This document shows positions 1 to 4,813 of a DNA stretch of 11,407 bases, piece by piece (position 1 is the first letter of the stretch; every line of letters begins with the position of its first letter). Source of the stretch: Pseudomonadota bacterium (GTDB lineage Bacteria; Desulfobacterota; Desulfobulbia; Desulfobulbales; Desulfobulbaceae). Below the pieces are notes generated by a model. That model saw only the letters and a program-made list of their open reading frames with translations. It searched no databases and had not been told where the DNA came from. Where the stretch lies: NCBI GenBank assembly GCA_009782165.1, contig WQUH01000166.1, positions 1-11,407 on the forward strand. Direction: 5' to 3'. Position numbers and translations under genes: made by a program.

Positions 1-936
1 CATGCCGCCGTCGATGTCATGACGCTGGGCGAAGGCGACCAGCGCGTCTACGTCTTCATGCCCGCGCAGCCCGCGCTGCGCGGAAAAGCGCCCATCGTCT
101 TCTTCCATCATGGCTGGCAGGGCATGAATCCGCTCAATTTCGGCGGGCTGATCGACCACCTCGCCCGTAGCGGCCAGGTGGTGATCTACCCGGTCTATCA
201 GCAGTCGGCGCGAACCTCGCCGCAACTCGTCACCGCCGCGGCGGCGGACGCCAACCGGCGCGCGCTGGAGGCGTTGAAAGCACGCTACGAGCTGACGCCC
301 GATCCGCAACGTATTTTGTATTACGGCTATTCGATGGGCGCGACCATCGCGCTCAATCTCGCGCTCGATCCAGCGGCCTACCATCTCCCTGCGCCGCGCG
401 CGCTGATGCTGGTGGCGCCGGGCAACGCCCATCATGTCGTCCATGGTCCTGAGGGGCGCAGCATCATCGGCCCGGTGGAACAATTGCCCTCCCGCCTGCC
501 AATCGCCTTGCTGACGGGCGAGGCGGACACCTCCATCGGCCTGCCCACCGCCCGCCTGCTGGCGGCGCGGCTGTGCGGCATTCGCGCCGACCGGCGCGTG
601 CTGATGGTGCTGCCCAGCGGCGAACACGACGGCAGGAAAGTCAAAGCCGGTCACGGTTCGCCCGGCGCGCCCGACAGCCGCTATGACTTTGCCCTGACGC
701 GCGAGGATATTCCCACCCGCATTCCTGGGCGATCGGGCTTTGAGGCGTCGGCCTCGCTCAATCAACTGGATTTCTACGGCTACTGGAAAGTGATCGACGC
801 CCTGACCGATAGCCTGGAAAAAGGCGAACTGCCCGCCAGCGTGTTCGGCGACGGCACGCCGCAGCAGACCTACCTGGGCCGCTGGCCGGACGGCACGCCG
901 TATCCGCCGGCGCAAATCGAGAATATGTGCCCATGA
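1..936 (+). CDS. alpha/beta hydrolase (dienelactone hydrolase-like), 5' partial
   Basis: The frame is open from base 1 (H-A-A-V-D-V before the Met at 19) and that stretch reads like part of a first beta strand, so the true start probably lies upstream of the window. Counting from the Met at 19, the visible part has 305 residues. An oxyanion-hole type HHGWQG is at residues 30-35, the nucleophile elbow GYSMG at 103-107 (Ser105), a likely acid Asp170 in LLTGEAD, and a likely catalytic His203 in GEHDG. Order and spacing fit a complete Ser-Asp-His triad. The family contains esterases, lipases, peptidases and dienelactone hydrolases; the substrate cannot be read from the sequence. The tail after His203, about 100 residues with FYGYWKVIDAL and YLGRWPDG, is longer than in minimal dienelactone hydrolases. 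No signal peptide can be judged because the N-terminus is missing. No partner gene is visible; the next gene downstream is of phage type and unrelated. Confidence 0.85.
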   Translation, partial: HAAVDVMTLGEGDQRVYVFMPAQPALRGKAPIVFFHHGWQGMNPLNFGGLIDHLARSGQVVIYPVYQQSARTSPQLVTAAAADANRRALEALKARYELTPDPQRILYYGYSMGATIALNLALDPAAYHLPAPRALMLVAPGNAHHVVHGPEGRSIIGPVEQLPSRLPIALLTGEADTSIGLPTARLLAARLCGIRADRRVLMVLPSGEHDGRKVKAGHGSPGAPDSRYDFALTREDIPTRIPGRSGFEASASLNQLDFYGYWKVIDALTDSLEKGELPASVFGDGTPQQTYLGRWPDGTPYPPAQIENMCP

Positions 937-985
937 GTTTTTTTGAATCTTTCCCCCGCCTCTCCGCAATCCCGCCGTCCCGCCA

Positions 986-1028
986 TTCCCGCGAAAGAAC
1001 GTCACCCCCGCGAAGGCGGGGGCGGGAA
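986..1028. repeat. nested palindromic dispersed-type repeat
   Basis: Two perfect inverted repeats are nested. The inner one is CCCCCGC (1005-1011) and GCGGGGG (1016-1022) around a GAAG loop. The outer one is TTCCCGC (986-992) and GCGGGAA (1022-1028). The wording 'cattcccgcgaaag' and 'gtcacccccgcgaaggcggggg' resembles the short intergenic palindromes (ATTCCCGCG...CGGGAAT type) that occur in many copies in some proteobacterial genomes. It looks like one such element with a second inserted inside it. It follows the hydrolase stop by about 50 bp and could also act as an RNA hairpin at the transcript end. Family assignment is by resemblance only. Confidence 0.55.
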
Positions 1029-1059
1029 CAGACGTTCGCCTGTGATGATGTCGCTCCCT

Positions 1060-1079
1060 TCCCGTTGAACGGGATTTTT
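1060..1079 (+). terminator. weak Rho-independent terminator candidate
   Basis: A short stem (TCCCG 1060-1064 with CGGGA 1070-1074, loop TTGAA) is followed directly by five T residues (1075-1079). It lies about 125 bp after the hydrolase stop codon and would end that transcript. The stem is only 5 bp, so the call is tentative. Confidence 0.35.
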
Positions 1080-1085
1080 CAATGC

Positions 1086-1113
1086 CGATGTTCCCCGCCC
1101 GCGCGGGGTGATC
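1086..1113 (+). repeat. CRISPR-like repeat unit (type I-E style), left copy
   Basis: This 28-base unit contains TGTTCCCCGC, CGCGCGGGG and GATC. The layout matches type I-E CRISPR repeats (GTTCCCCGC, palindromic centre, GCGGGG, A/T-rich end). It is 26/28 identical to the copy at 3973-4000; the differences are C versus A at 1099 and T versus C at 1109. No further unit lies at the expected distance of about 61 bp on either side, so this is not an ordinary array. It could equally be a dispersed REP-like palindrome. The GTG that would open the long frame at 1108 lies inside this unit. Confidence 0.6.
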
Positions 1114-4100
1114 TCCGTTCCCGGCTCGCAGGGGAAGCTAGTGCGACCCGCGGTGCCGGTCACTCCCGATGCCCAGTCCAGTCCTGCCGTGCAGGACACG
1201 CAAGCTGTTCGCAGCCAAACGGAAGAGTCCGAATATCAGGACTGGATAAAGACCACAGAGCTGCGAAACGTCCAGGCAAAAGCTGACGCGACGCTTTCCG
1301 ACATCATCAACAACGTCGACGCTTACGGCACCACCAGAGAAGACTGGCAAGCTGAACAGTCAGCCAGCGGCATTGTGCATTATTCCGCCGAGGGGCTCAC
1401 CCCAGAGGACTATGACCCCGTTGTTGACGACTACGGCAGCATAATCGAGCTTGGATTCACGCACAAAGAGGCGCGGGAATACCTTGGTCCGCGTCTGGCC
1501 GCTGTTGGATTCACGGACAGAGAGATCCACGAATATTTCACCAAGTGCGCGGACCCTGGTTTGCGGCGCTCGTGGATATACGGCGACCAGGGGTCGTATG
1601 CCGGATTGAAGATGAGAGGCAAGCGACCGGACGAGTTGCAGCCGGAAGAGGCTGCCGCCGAAAGCAAGCTCCGGGAGCGCGCGCCCGACGCCTACAAGGA
1701 TATGGTCGAATCGCTCACCGACAACAGCGACGTGAAAGAGCTTCACATCGATGGCGAGCAGTTTCAGCAGGCCATGGACAAGGCCGGCGTGACGTTCGAG
1801 CAACTTCAGGCGACCATGCCGGACGTTGCCCGAGGGTTGGGAGAGGCGCTGGCGACCAGGGGCGACGTGACCATCCCGGTTGCGGACTACCTCACCCATG
1901 TTGCCGGCACCCCGATGGAAGGGGAAGTCCTGCCGCATATCAAGGTTGACCCGGAAGGCATGACCTATGCCGAGGGGCAGGCATTCTACCAAACCCAGAA
2001 TGAAGCGATGCTCAAGGCGGCCGAGAAGCTGAGCGCGGCCAAGGAGAAGGACGCCGAGTACCAGAAACAGGTGAAGGAGGTACAGGACAGCATCACCAGG
2101 CAGTTGACCGACGCAGGCGTTTACGCGCCCTCAGTGTCGAAGGAGTACGCGAAGCTGCCCCTGGCCTTCTTCCAAACCACCGCCCACCGGCTGGGCATGT
2201 CGCCGCTGGAGTTTTATCAGCGATGGGGCGCCAAGATCGTTGGCGACCATCTTGACCGCGTGACGGGCGGCGATGGGTTTGGGCAGCCGATGAACCCTGG
2301 TGTTGATCCAGCCGAGCGCATTCCTGTCGTAAATCTTGACGACGTTATTCCGGGGATAAAGAAGTTTACCCAAGAGGGTGCGGATAAATTTGTTGAGCTT
2401 TGGAAGGGGGCAGAACTTACGCTTTCTGATGGGGGATATTCGGCTAGGCTATCATCTATAGATCCAGATCATCCTTACTGGTCTGCAAATGATGCTGGAC
2501 GCATAAACGAAACCCGACGGGCGGCGCTAACCGTGCTGGATCGTGTGTTGGCAGGGGCAAGACGTATTGAGGATGCGCCAGGGAAACACGAAGGCGTTGG
2601 CGCTACCATTCGTTTTTATGTTCCTGTGCGTCGGTACAACGACAATCCGGCAACATTGCGGATTGTCACGCATGTTTTGGAGGGGAACAAAGCGGAAATA
2701 GACGGAGTGGAAATTTATGATGTCATGCGAGAGCGCCCCTCCCGTCGGGGAAGGGTGGCCTCCGAGACGAGCCGGGCGAGCGACATCCCGCAAAGGATTT
2801 CCGAAGCAAGCCACCCTTCTTCGGATCATCCTGACACTATTACTATACGCGAAATGCTCTCTGGCGTCAAGGACGCGCAAGGCAAACCGTATTTTGAACA
2901 GTCCGCCAAACCCTTCGACGGCCGCGAAGTTGCCGCCACACCCATGTCCGCAGGCCAGGCCCACATCGAGGTGGATGGCGTCACGCGGTCGGCGCTGAAC
3001 AGCGAGGGCAAGCCGCTTCACTGGAGCGAGGAGGGTACGCGCAATTTCTGGAGGTGGTTTGGCGACAGCAAAGTGGTTGACGAGGAAGGCCGGCCGCTGG
3101 TGGTGTATCACGGGACGAATGATGCCGGATTCGATACGTTTTCCCGTGAACGTCTTGGCTGGAACACCGAGGGAAACGCATCTGACAATGAGATGCTGGC
3201 CACATCGGCTGTCGGATTCTGGGCAAACACGGGGAAAGAGGTGTCGGAACGCGGTGGTTACGATGCGACCATGCCGCTGTACCTGCGCATTGAAGAACCG
3301 TACAACGCCGGCAATCTGGAGTCGTTGGGACGTGACATCTCCCAGCGCACTCCCGTAGAAGCTCTGGACGCGGATGGCGACCCTGCCGGCGAGATGAACG
3401 GGTTGGAAAGCGGCAAGAAATACGCCTCTTATTTACGAGGCCTTGAATACGACGGCGTTATCATCCAGGATGAAGAGTTTGGCGGCACGTCGGTTGTCGC
3501 TCTCAACCGCTCCCAAATCAAATCCGCCATCGGCAACACCGGGGCATTTGACGGGACGAATCCGAATATCCTGCGCCAGCAAGGGGCCGCCCCTCGCGGC
3601 ACGTTCAACCCTGCCAGCAACACCATCACCCTGCTCAAGCACCCGGACGCACTCAAGGGTGCCGACCTGTCCACGTTCACCCACGAGCTGGGGCATCATT
3701 TCTTTGATGCCTACACCAAAATAGCCGCGCTCGAAGATGCGCCGCCAGAGATCAAGGCCGACGTCGAGACGCTGTTCAAGCATTTGGGCGTCGAGAGCCT
3801 GGACCAATGGCATTCCATGTCGGTCGAAGAGCAGCGGCCCTATCATGAGCAGCTTGCCAAAGATTTCGAGAAGTACATGACGGACGGCAAAGCGCCGACG
3901 CCGGAACTGCAAGGCGCGTTTTCCGCGTTCTCTTCTTGGCTGCGCGAGATTTACCGCACCGTAAAAGAACTGCGATGTTCCCCGCACGCGCGGGGCGATC
4001 CTTTTAGTGAATGTATGATGTATTTTTTCTTGCTTCGAAGGATGCCTCGCCAGCGGCCTGGGGCGCGGCAATGGCCCGATGGCTTGCGACAGGCTTTACA

Positions 4101-4197
4101 AGCTCCGGGCAAGTGGTTTATGATGCCGGGCAGGGTGCGGCATGGGATGCAAAAGATGCCGAGTTTCCAGCAACTTCTCAGCGCAGGTGGATCATGA
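1108..4197 (+). CDS. truncated phage/mobile-element polyvalent protein: ADP-ribosyltransferase-like plus zinc metallopeptidase domains
   Basis: This 1029-codon frame opens at a GTG inside a CRISPR-like repeat, so its N-terminus is doubtful. Residues 1-390 are mostly helical and charged ([20 protein letters not shown] near 304-323) and resemble the leading parts of large phage proteins. Residues 425-545 hold a module with [17 protein letters not shown] and RFYVPVRR, perhaps an LPD3- or barnase-like associated domain. Residues 645-815 ([24 protein letters not shown], then YDGVII and QIKSAIGN) fit the ADP-ribosyltransferase domains of phage polyvalent proteins, with His668 as candidate NAD contact. 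Residues 830-955 carry HELGHH (859-864), a zinc-metallopeptidase motif, then [13 protein letters not shown]. Such proteins are thought to be delivered with phage or plasmid DNA and to modify host targets. Family-like sequence ends at [10 protein letters not shown] (946-955), where such proteins normally continue. The last 74 residues are translated CRISPR-like repeat and ssb leader, so the gene is 3' truncated and probably non-functional. No capsid, tail or integrase gene is near. Confidence 0.75.
2741..2825. repeat. in-frame palindrome-rich insert within the polyvalent gene
   Basis: Two overlapping perfect inverted repeats occur here: GAAGGGTGGC (2750-2759) with GCCACCCTTC (2810-2819), and TCCGAAG (2800-2806) with CTTCGGA (2819-2825). 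A small TCCC-GTCG-GGGA hairpin lies at the left edge. The stretch codes for a low-complexity Arg/Ser-rich linker ([22 protein letters not shown], quoted in part) between two more conserved domains. It resembles a REP-like dispersed element inserted without breaking the frame. Whether other copies exist in the genome is unknown. Confidence 0.45.
3973..4000 (+). repeat. CRISPR-like repeat unit (type I-E style), right copy
   Basis: This is the second copy of the 28-base unit, in the same orientation as the copy at 1086-1113 and matching 26 of 28 bases. In the long frame it reads [17 protein letters not shown]-like peptides are typical of spurious translations of type I-E CRISPR repeats. It starts exactly where the recognisable phage-protein sequence (…[10 protein letters not shown]) stops. 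No neighbouring unit is present at CRISPR-array spacing. Confidence 0.6.
4095..4124 (+). promoter_or_regulatory. sigma-70 type promoter of ssb
   Basis: TTTACA (4095-4100, 5/6 to the -35 consensus) and TATGAT (4119-4124, 5/6 to the -10 consensus) are separated by 18 bp. Transcription would start near 4131 and give a leader of about 60 bases before the ssb start. No operator-like palindrome, such as a clear LexA box, was seen next to it. Confidence 0.6.
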
Positions 4198-4625
4198 TCA
4201 ATAAAGTTATATTAATCGGTAATCTGGGAGCGGATCCGGAAATTCGGTATACCCAGAGTGGAACGCCGTTCGCCTCGTTCCGGATAGCGACCACCGAGCG
4301 GTGGAAAGGCCAGGACGGGCAGATGCAGGAGCAGACCGAATGGCACAGTATCGTGGCATGGCGAAGGCTGGCCGAGATCTGCGGCGAGTATCTGGCCAAA
4401 GGCTCCCGGGTGTTCATCGAGGGCAAGCTGCAAACCCGGAAATGGCAGGATCAGAACGGCAATGACCGCTATACCACCGAGATTGTCGCCCGCGAGATGA
4501 AGATGCTCTCGCCGCGCTCCGGCGGCGGCGGCAGCGGCGGCGGCGAGCACGGCGGCGGCAGCCAGGGCTACGGCGCCGAGCCCTTTGCCGAACCGCCGCC
4601 CATGGGTGACGATGTGCCGTTCTGA
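4194..4625 (+). CDS. ssb: single-stranded DNA-binding protein
   Basis: SSB coats single-stranded DNA as a tetramer during replication, recombination and repair, and recruits partner enzymes through its acidic tail. The 143-residue product begins [20 protein letters not shown], the standard SSB start, and residues 1 to about 108 form the OB fold (TEWHSIVAW at 48-56, [11 protein letters not shown] at 74-84). A glycine-rich linker covers about 109-125. The C-terminal tip is MGDDVPF, a variant of the usual acidic DDxPF tail. The length is normal for bacterial SSB. The frame is open far upstream, but the ATG at 4194 is chosen because homology starts there and AGGTGG (4185-4190) sits just before it. 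The start overlaps the stop of the phage-like frame as ATGA, but this is likely accidental because ssb has its own promoter. Confidence 0.97.
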
Positions 4626-4632
4626 CGCCCCG

Positions 4633-4654
4633 TTTTTTTTTGTTTTTTTTGTTT
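4633..4654 (+). other. long interrupted T tract
   Basis: Nine T, G, eight T, G and three T follow the ssb stop codon by 7 bp. The tract is extreme for this GC-rich neighbourhood. A weak stem could form upstream from GGGTG (about 4604-4608) and CGCCC (about 4626-4630), so the tract may be the U-run of an ssb terminator whose stem spans the end of the coding region. It may also be a slippage-prone or bent-DNA tract. Confidence 0.5.
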
Positions 4655-4666
4655 ACATCCGCAACC

Positions 4667-4700
4667 CGCAACCCGGATGGCCTGTGCCGTCCGGGTTGCG
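4667..4700. other. 15-bp stem-tetraloop hairpin
   Basis: Bases 4667-4681 pair with 4686-4700 over 15 bp, with one T-G wobble (4678/4689) and a CTGT loop. GCAACCC occurs twice in tandem at the left side (4661-4667 and 4668-4674 with small offset). No T run follows on the + strand and only A runs follow on the - strand, so it is not a standard terminator on either strand. It could protect the 3' end of the ssb mRNA or be part of a small RNA or leader for the next gene. Confidence 0.6.
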
Positions 4701-4734
4701 ATGTTGTATGCCCAGGCTTGGGGCGGCCCGGCGG

Positions 4735-4762
4735 GCAGGGGAGGGGGCAGGGCCACCCCTGC
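4735..4762. repeat. inverted repeat upstream of the exported-protein gene
   Basis: GCAGGGG (4735-4741) and CCCCTGC (4756-4762) are perfect inverted repeats with a 14-base G-rich loop. They sit 50 bp before the start codon at 4814. They may be a leader hairpin; no convincing -35/-10 pair was found between 4700 and 4813. Confidence 0.35.
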
Positions 4763-4813
4763 GATCAAGAGGATTGGGTTCCTGCCAGACATATTCAGCA
4801 TAGAGGTATTGGT

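Follow-up and report, generated by a model that had tools for sequence, protein, structure and literature searches.

We analysed a stretch of 11,407 bases (the window), which is the whole of contig C166 in a bin of 1.47 Mb and 313 contigs. At its left end the window carries an alpha/beta hydrolase gene, in its middle two CRISPR-repeat-like units that bracket a piece of a phage gene, and beyond these the gene ssb (Table 1). The right unit is followed by 78 bases, the ssb upstream region, ssb, a frame with no Pfam match and a DUF3142 gene; the genes beyond the DUF3142 gene read as an NADH dehydrogenase (nuo) run.

Table 1. Features of the window discussed in the text
Feature	Positions	Strand	Basis
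Alpha/beta hydrolase gene of the left flank, truncated 5' at the start of the contig	19-936	+	Pfam Abhydrolase_3, DLH
Terminator-like hairpin and T run 3' of the hydrolase gene	1060-1074	+	Consensus match only
Left CRISPR-repeat-like unit	1086-1113	+	Direct-repeat match, pattern search, hairpin (6-bp G+C stem, 4-base loop)
1029-codon open frame, through the phage piece and the right unit	1108-4197	+	ORF list
Open stretch, unaligned in all searches; taken to be the left part of the phage piece	1114-1425	+	Homology searches
Polyvalent phage gene of the Bbp10/Rauchvirus type, internal piece	1426-3972	+	Domain, PHROG and phage alignments; well supported from ~1648
Right CRISPR-repeat-like unit	3973-4000	+	Direct-repeat match; phage homology ends here
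ssb upstream region with promoter-like pair	4079-4193	+	Similarity to relatives, consensus scan
ssb; right flank	4194-4625	+	Pfam SSB in 4011-4625; start codon by reading

The right flank is widely shared, with ssb matches in 48 of 55 genomes. Similarity upstream of ssb extends back to positions 4079-4107 in 6 of 29 relatives' loci and starts nearer the gene in the others. The sequence farther upstream differs among the seven relatives examined, where it holds an ammonium-transporter-like frame or other frames, all named by reading. The promoter-like pair, at 4095-4124, lies within the ssb-upstream stretch common to close relatives, and the gene farther upstream of it varies. On the other side of the phage piece, the terminator-like hairpin behind the hydrolase gene is one of 10 terminator-like sites in positions 900-4300, where 3.7 are expected. 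The same left intergenic stretch contains a strong palindrome, CCCCCGCGAAGGCGGGGG, at 1003-1024; elsewhere in the bin it occurs at chance level with up to three mismatches (4 forward and 3 reverse matches, against 3 and 4 for the control). The left junction had no match in plasmids. The Rfam scan gave nothing at the gathering threshold, and an anti-hemB match below it (952-1082, E 0.22) was put down to chance.

Two units resembling type I-E CRISPR repeats

The two units are direct repeats with 26 of 28 positions identical. They stand in the same orientation, 2,887 bases apart from left to right, and beyond their edges the match is lost. Every other direct pair of 28-mers in the window scores lower, and the maximum in 20 dinucleotide shuffles was 23. 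A degenerate 27-mer allowing three mismatches matched twice in the window and in none of 200 shuffles. Across the searchable bin it again matched twice, both times at the units, and a search for the core GTTCCCCGCNNNNGCGGGG with up to one mismatch recovered the same two sites only. The units have no exact word of more than 13 bases in common. In both, a G+C stem of 6 bp carries a 4-base loop and is extended by an outer GAT/ATC helix, a folding equalled by 10 and 11 of 200 shuffles for the two units, and the stem sits within TGTTCCCCGC....GCGGGG, the type I-E repeat pattern. These results bear out the initial description of two 28-bp units in the same orientation with a type I-E core. In a consensus scan the right unit appears terminator-like and is followed by CTTTT; on the + strand the scan found no promoter-like site upstream of either unit.

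Of 55 genomes searched, four hold the exact core GTTCCCCGCNNNNGCGGGG: the bin (2 copies), the congeners G013 (1) and G018 (68), and the order-mate G026 (41). The copies form type I-E arrays in one of the 22 congeners (G018) and in the order-level relative (G026). The exact core matches in G018 are mostly 61 bases apart, and the stretches examined in G018 and G026 are arrays with a period of ~61 bases, in which the repeat ends in ATGAACC. When an array is defined by at least two spacings of 58-64 bases, arrays are present in 69 of the 116 GTDB stretches with TGTTCCCCGCNCGCGCGGGG among the matches listed. The exact degenerate 25-mer of the unit form, TGTTCCCCGCNCGCGCGGGGNGATC, had no match in GTDB or in IMG/VR viral contigs. 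A near form, GTGTTCCCCGCACGCGCGGGGGTGATCC, is the repeat of a locus in the Desulfovibrio sp. MAG Roe453_bin138 (L192), and the units are one base shorter than this repeat past GCGGGG. With the repeats of G018, G026 and L192 the units share the core and its orientation, TGTTCCCCGC, the 4-base loop, the GCGGGG stem and a TGATCC/TGAACC-like 3' end, which is off by one base. By these features they resemble worn type I-E CRISPR repeats, in a searchable bin where no array was found.

The layout differs from that of type I-E arrays. Where an array has at least three repeats at a period of ~61 bases with 32-base spacers, the window has two units 2,887 bases apart, with no ordinary spacers between them and no Cse1 or Cas1 match, and the searchable bin holds no third unit. 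The searches for Cse1 and Cas1 found no match in the bin, which is 57% complete and in which 8 of 20 contigs examined are N throughout, so that part of it was probably outside the sequence searches; for the same reasons the absence of an array, Cse1 and Cas1 is weak evidence.

Other kinds of repeat fit the units less well. The earlier note had considered a dispersed, REP-like palindrome family, which finds no support here: REP or BIME palindromes call for many intergenic copies, and two are seen in the searchable bin. CreTA consists of two degenerate repeats flanking a short guide, a layout that does not fit units standing 2,887 bases apart. Solitary repeat units, or Racrs, are CRISPR-repeat mimics near phage DNA, as are the units described here, and one study reports a suggestion that they may allow viruses to integrate into arrays (PMC10651486). 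As portrayed there, a Racr is a single intergenic repeat of a mobile element, unaccompanied by other repeats, whereas the window has two units that bracket a cut gene, one of them abutting the broken coding sequence.

An internal piece of a polyvalent phage gene

The 1029-codon frame carries an ART-PolyVal domain at residues 658-814 (Pfam) and matches PHROG 9880. Among its homologues in phages are Bbp10 (Bordetella phage BPP-1) and counterparts in Caulobacter phages. The presence of ART-PolyVal and flanking conserved segments in one frame identifies a polyvalent protein, a class described in PMC5512222. A defence-family scan of the frame gave no match. Bbp10 (2052 aa, phage BPP-1) and JessAGP_039c (2039 aa, Caulobacter phage Jess A) have the common parts in the same order as the window at 30-40% identity, and the window holds an internal piece only: its residues 181 to 962-963 correspond to about 375-404 to 913-928 in the two phage proteins. 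Assuming colinearity, the position of the aligned part means that neither end of the gene is present. No stop codon interrupts the 952 codons of the insert.

The right end of the phage homology was examined in 60 phage loci with a match (58 viral loci, Jess A and BPP-1), 24 of which have alignments reaching at least residue 945. Each of these loci continues for a further 100 aa or more, some past the end of the available stretch; the gene in the window is thus not of full length. The alignments end at residues 952-958 in 18 of the 24 loci and at residues 961-971 in six, and the right unit corresponds to residues 956-965. The residues VFDR are found within the next 25 residues in 17 of the 24 loci and are absent from the window. 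At the level of the contig the right break is real to within a few residues. The scatter of the 24 alignment ends places it at the unit to a few residues and not to the base, and to that resolution the earlier claim that phage homology ends exactly at the right unit holds. A polyvalent gene that naturally contains the right unit was rejected, as all 24 loci that reach the break carry other sequence there. The earlier note had named a full-length gene with both palindromes as a possible alternative; the comparison speaks against it for the right unit only.

Most phage alignments start near residue 181, few loci align earlier, and the leftmost alignment, to one phage at 28% identity, starts near residue 107. 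Targeted searches of the left part, one of them limited to proteins of up to about 1,800 aa, recovered no match for the first ~105 residues, and the left break of the phage homology cannot be placed for this reason. Of the ~2.86 kb of polyvalent coding sequence first proposed to lie between the units, the domain, the PHROG match and the alignments confirm a phage piece, and the first ~105 residues are matchless.

A related copy is present in the congener G016, where a domain 77% identical to that of the window lies downstream of a frame read as a tyrosine integrase. The arrangement of this copy suggests that such phage elements occur in the genus. On contig C296 of G016 (L126, L129) the polyvalent gene stands close behind the integrase-like frame; its DNA resembles that of the window only from window position 1797 onward, and the junction is abrupt.

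Within the phage piece, positions 2750-2819 hold an in-frame palindromic stretch with the arms GAAGGGTGGC and GCCACCCTTC. The 111 bases around it matched 1 of 55 genomes, the bin itself. The stretch resembles the in-frame palindromic elements of Rickettsia.

Proposed origins of the join between the units and the phage DNA

The observation itself is sound, and an interrupted CRISPR-like locus is of a known kind; how the join arose is a matter of proposal. The likeliest single route, to which we assign a probability of about 45%, is an assembly path running along spacers of the same sequence as the phage; the earlier note had likewise considered a metagenome assembly join at CRISPR repeats. The units would then be the ends of a small, worn I-E-like array between the hydrolase gene and the ssb promoter, and the DNA between them an internal polyvalent-gene piece from a phage of the host group. 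Two spacers of the array would be identical to two places in the phage gene, so that the assembler could leave the first repeat through spacer one, follow the phage sequence and return to the final repeat by way of the final spacer. On this proposal both ends of the insert would be spacers, and the join would have been made by software.

The assembly path is supported by the fragmentary state of the bin (313 contigs, 57% complete), by the type I-E arrays of near-identical core in congener G018 and order-mate G026 and those among the GTDB stretches listed, by the signs of such phage elements in the genus, and by the end of the phage homology at the unit, where a spacer would sit. A frame that stays open for 952 codons despite the missing parts of the gene is what a live phage would be expected to supply directly; such intactness points to DNA newly derived from a phage, and hence to either an assembly join or a recent event. 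According to a 2019 study, CRISPR-array repeats can yield chimeric contigs with short reads (PMC6617893). The simple collapse of one unit onto the other is a different matter, as it is impossible at usual k with no common word longer than 13 bases.

Several observations count against the assembly path. Like a double crossover within the cell, it predicts a spacer in the 32 bases at each end of the insert. The E. coli-type PAM list comprises AAG, ATG, AGG and GAG. None of these stands before a spacer of 31-34 bases that would end at the right unit, the sole testable end, and this weighs against both the assembler path and the double crossover. The exact end segments of the insert had no matches in viral contigs. 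The path also requires two spacers from one gene and the loss of the alternatives at both, and it predicts base-exact edges, which the alignments resolve to a few residues. Finally, the 1029-aa protein was counted on two contigs, the window and one other, and the second may be another assembly with the same join.

The routes by which the join would have formed inside the cell, all taken together, fall somewhat short of an even chance. They consist largely of a genuine capture that would have exchanged a section of an existing array for 2.86 kb of phage DNA, either by double crossover at two spacers and their protospacers or by end-joining repair of a break in the array; jointly these two routes are a possible account that we hold only tentatively. 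The sequence is contiguous with units at both edges, it offers no common word longer than 13 bases to mislead an assembler, and the count of the 1029-aa protein on two contigs also fits a capture. Large inserts between repeats do exist elsewhere, with exact-core gaps at several of the loci listed and toxin-antitoxin-like genes in the gaps of L192, L195 and L240 (see below). Against a capture, an unselected fragment would decay, yet the insert has 0 stops in 952 codons, so the event would have to be recent. No further repeats, Cse1 or Cas1 were found in the searchable bin, and the crossover form meets no listed PAM at the right end. The earlier suggestion of a decayed array with a phage insert therefore stands as far as the likeness to repeats and the right break are concerned, while the array, Cse1 and Cas1 that would belong to it were not found in the bin. 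That the cell holds the 2.86-kb phage DNA as a 'giant spacer' between repeats, through two-spacer recombination or through integration of an oversized fragment, we consider unlikely; plain end-joining repair makes up the remainder of the in-cell routes.

Two further recombination routes were rejected. A single crossover of a circular phage would leave the same spacer at both ends, and the ends differ, with no common word longer than 13 bases in the flanks of ±100 bases. A circular phage integrated at its own solitary repeat would, by reasoning, require a circle of 2.86 kb.

A chimera of three parts, with the hydrolase flank coming from another organism and joined at the left unit, is improbable. 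It would agree with the hydrolase match in 1 of 36 genomes, the bin itself, and no relative with the hydrolase-ssb interval was found in that search. Among the 120 matches listed of 261, the closest relatives bearing an organism name come from Dyella (74%) and Collimonas (69%), and the 4-mer profile of the gene is among the most extreme 3.5% when set against 141 host windows taken from 12 contigs; a chimera would agree with both. However, the codon use of the hydrolase fits the contig (0.338, against 0.316 and 0.362 for other genes), a Desulfobulbaceae MAG carries a relative at 59% (among the same 120 of 261 matches listed), and horizontal transfer accounts for the same facts. A full-length hydrolase of 358 aa, 100% identical over 305 aa, is recorded on a public 6,904-base contig (P0005), which perhaps represents the same population in another assembly.

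Integration of one very long phage fragment by Cas1-Cas2 at a single repeat, with duplication of the repeat, is very unlikely. In CRISPR adaptation, integration at a repeat yields a repeat-insert-repeat layout, and the layout of the window fits. However, the two copies would start identical, and their present difference at 2 of 28 positions with no stop in the insert arose with a probability of ~0.06 when neutral change was simulated in 400 draws under a flat prior. The insert is also far beyond ordinary prespacer size, known type I-E prespacers being ~33 bp. Equally hard to credit are non-CRISPR hairpins, such as terminators or the ends of HUH-type elements: the outer GAT/ATC pairs seen in both units and not in the co-folded L192 repeat, the absence of exact TGTTCCCCGCNCGCGCGGGGNGATC from GTDB and viral contigs, and the terminator-like right unit with its CTTTT would suit them, but TGTTCCCCGC-N4-GCGGGG with a GATC-type end is the pattern of arrays, and the searchable bin has only two copies.

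Should the insert prove real, CRISPR arrays would be able to acquire phage segments of kilobase size, and this would be a route for array decay or for DNA exchange between phage and host. Should the join be a product of assembly, it shows a way in which identity between spacers and protospacers links phage DNA to host contigs, a concern for anyone inferring prophage content or host-phage links from metagenome bins.

Large gaps between CRISPR repeats in other genomes

Gaps of more than 500 bases between exact cores were detected at 8 of 116 loci among the matches listed. In three of the eight (L192, L195 and L240), from a set of at least 116 loci, toxin-antitoxin-like genes lie between CRISPR repeats; the family searches of gaps covered these three. 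L192 (positions 1120-3800) has I-E-like repeats interrupted by ~2.6 kb, with a pair of BrnT and BrnA genes and two Pfam-less frames in the gap. In L195 (positions 3740-4680; Proteobacteria MAG SKS3.bin107), UPF0175 and DUF3368 genes, a pair that we take to be a toxin-antitoxin system, lie inside an ordinary array of 54 units. The PhdYefM match of this pair is slightly under the cut-off, and a frame with a ParE domain crosses the array end. L240 (positions 4116-4798, minus strand; Rhodospirillales MAG PL25a_bin.107) carries a ParD-ParE pair in a 1,027-base gap of one array.

These interrupted arrays share with the window the presence of large foreign DNA between repeats of one locus. Their inserts hold whole toxin-antitoxin-like genes (BrnTA in L192, UPF0175 and DUF3368 in L195, ParDE in L240), whereas that of the window is a cut phage gene, and L195 and L240 retain many ordinary spacers, unlike the window. 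Judged by title, the literature on large phage inserts between CRISPR repeats yielded no work that names such a case, and that on toxin-antitoxin genes between array repeats no obvious one. The three loci with toxin-antitoxin-like genes merit a systematic count.

Of the other gaps, that of L144 lies between two arrays and contains frames read as cas genes, those of L146 and L194 contain frames with no assignment, and that of L142 has no long frame; the gap of L205 vanishes when looser units (up to three mismatches) are allowed. In L192, an apparent half repeat can be seen by eye directly after the first repeat.
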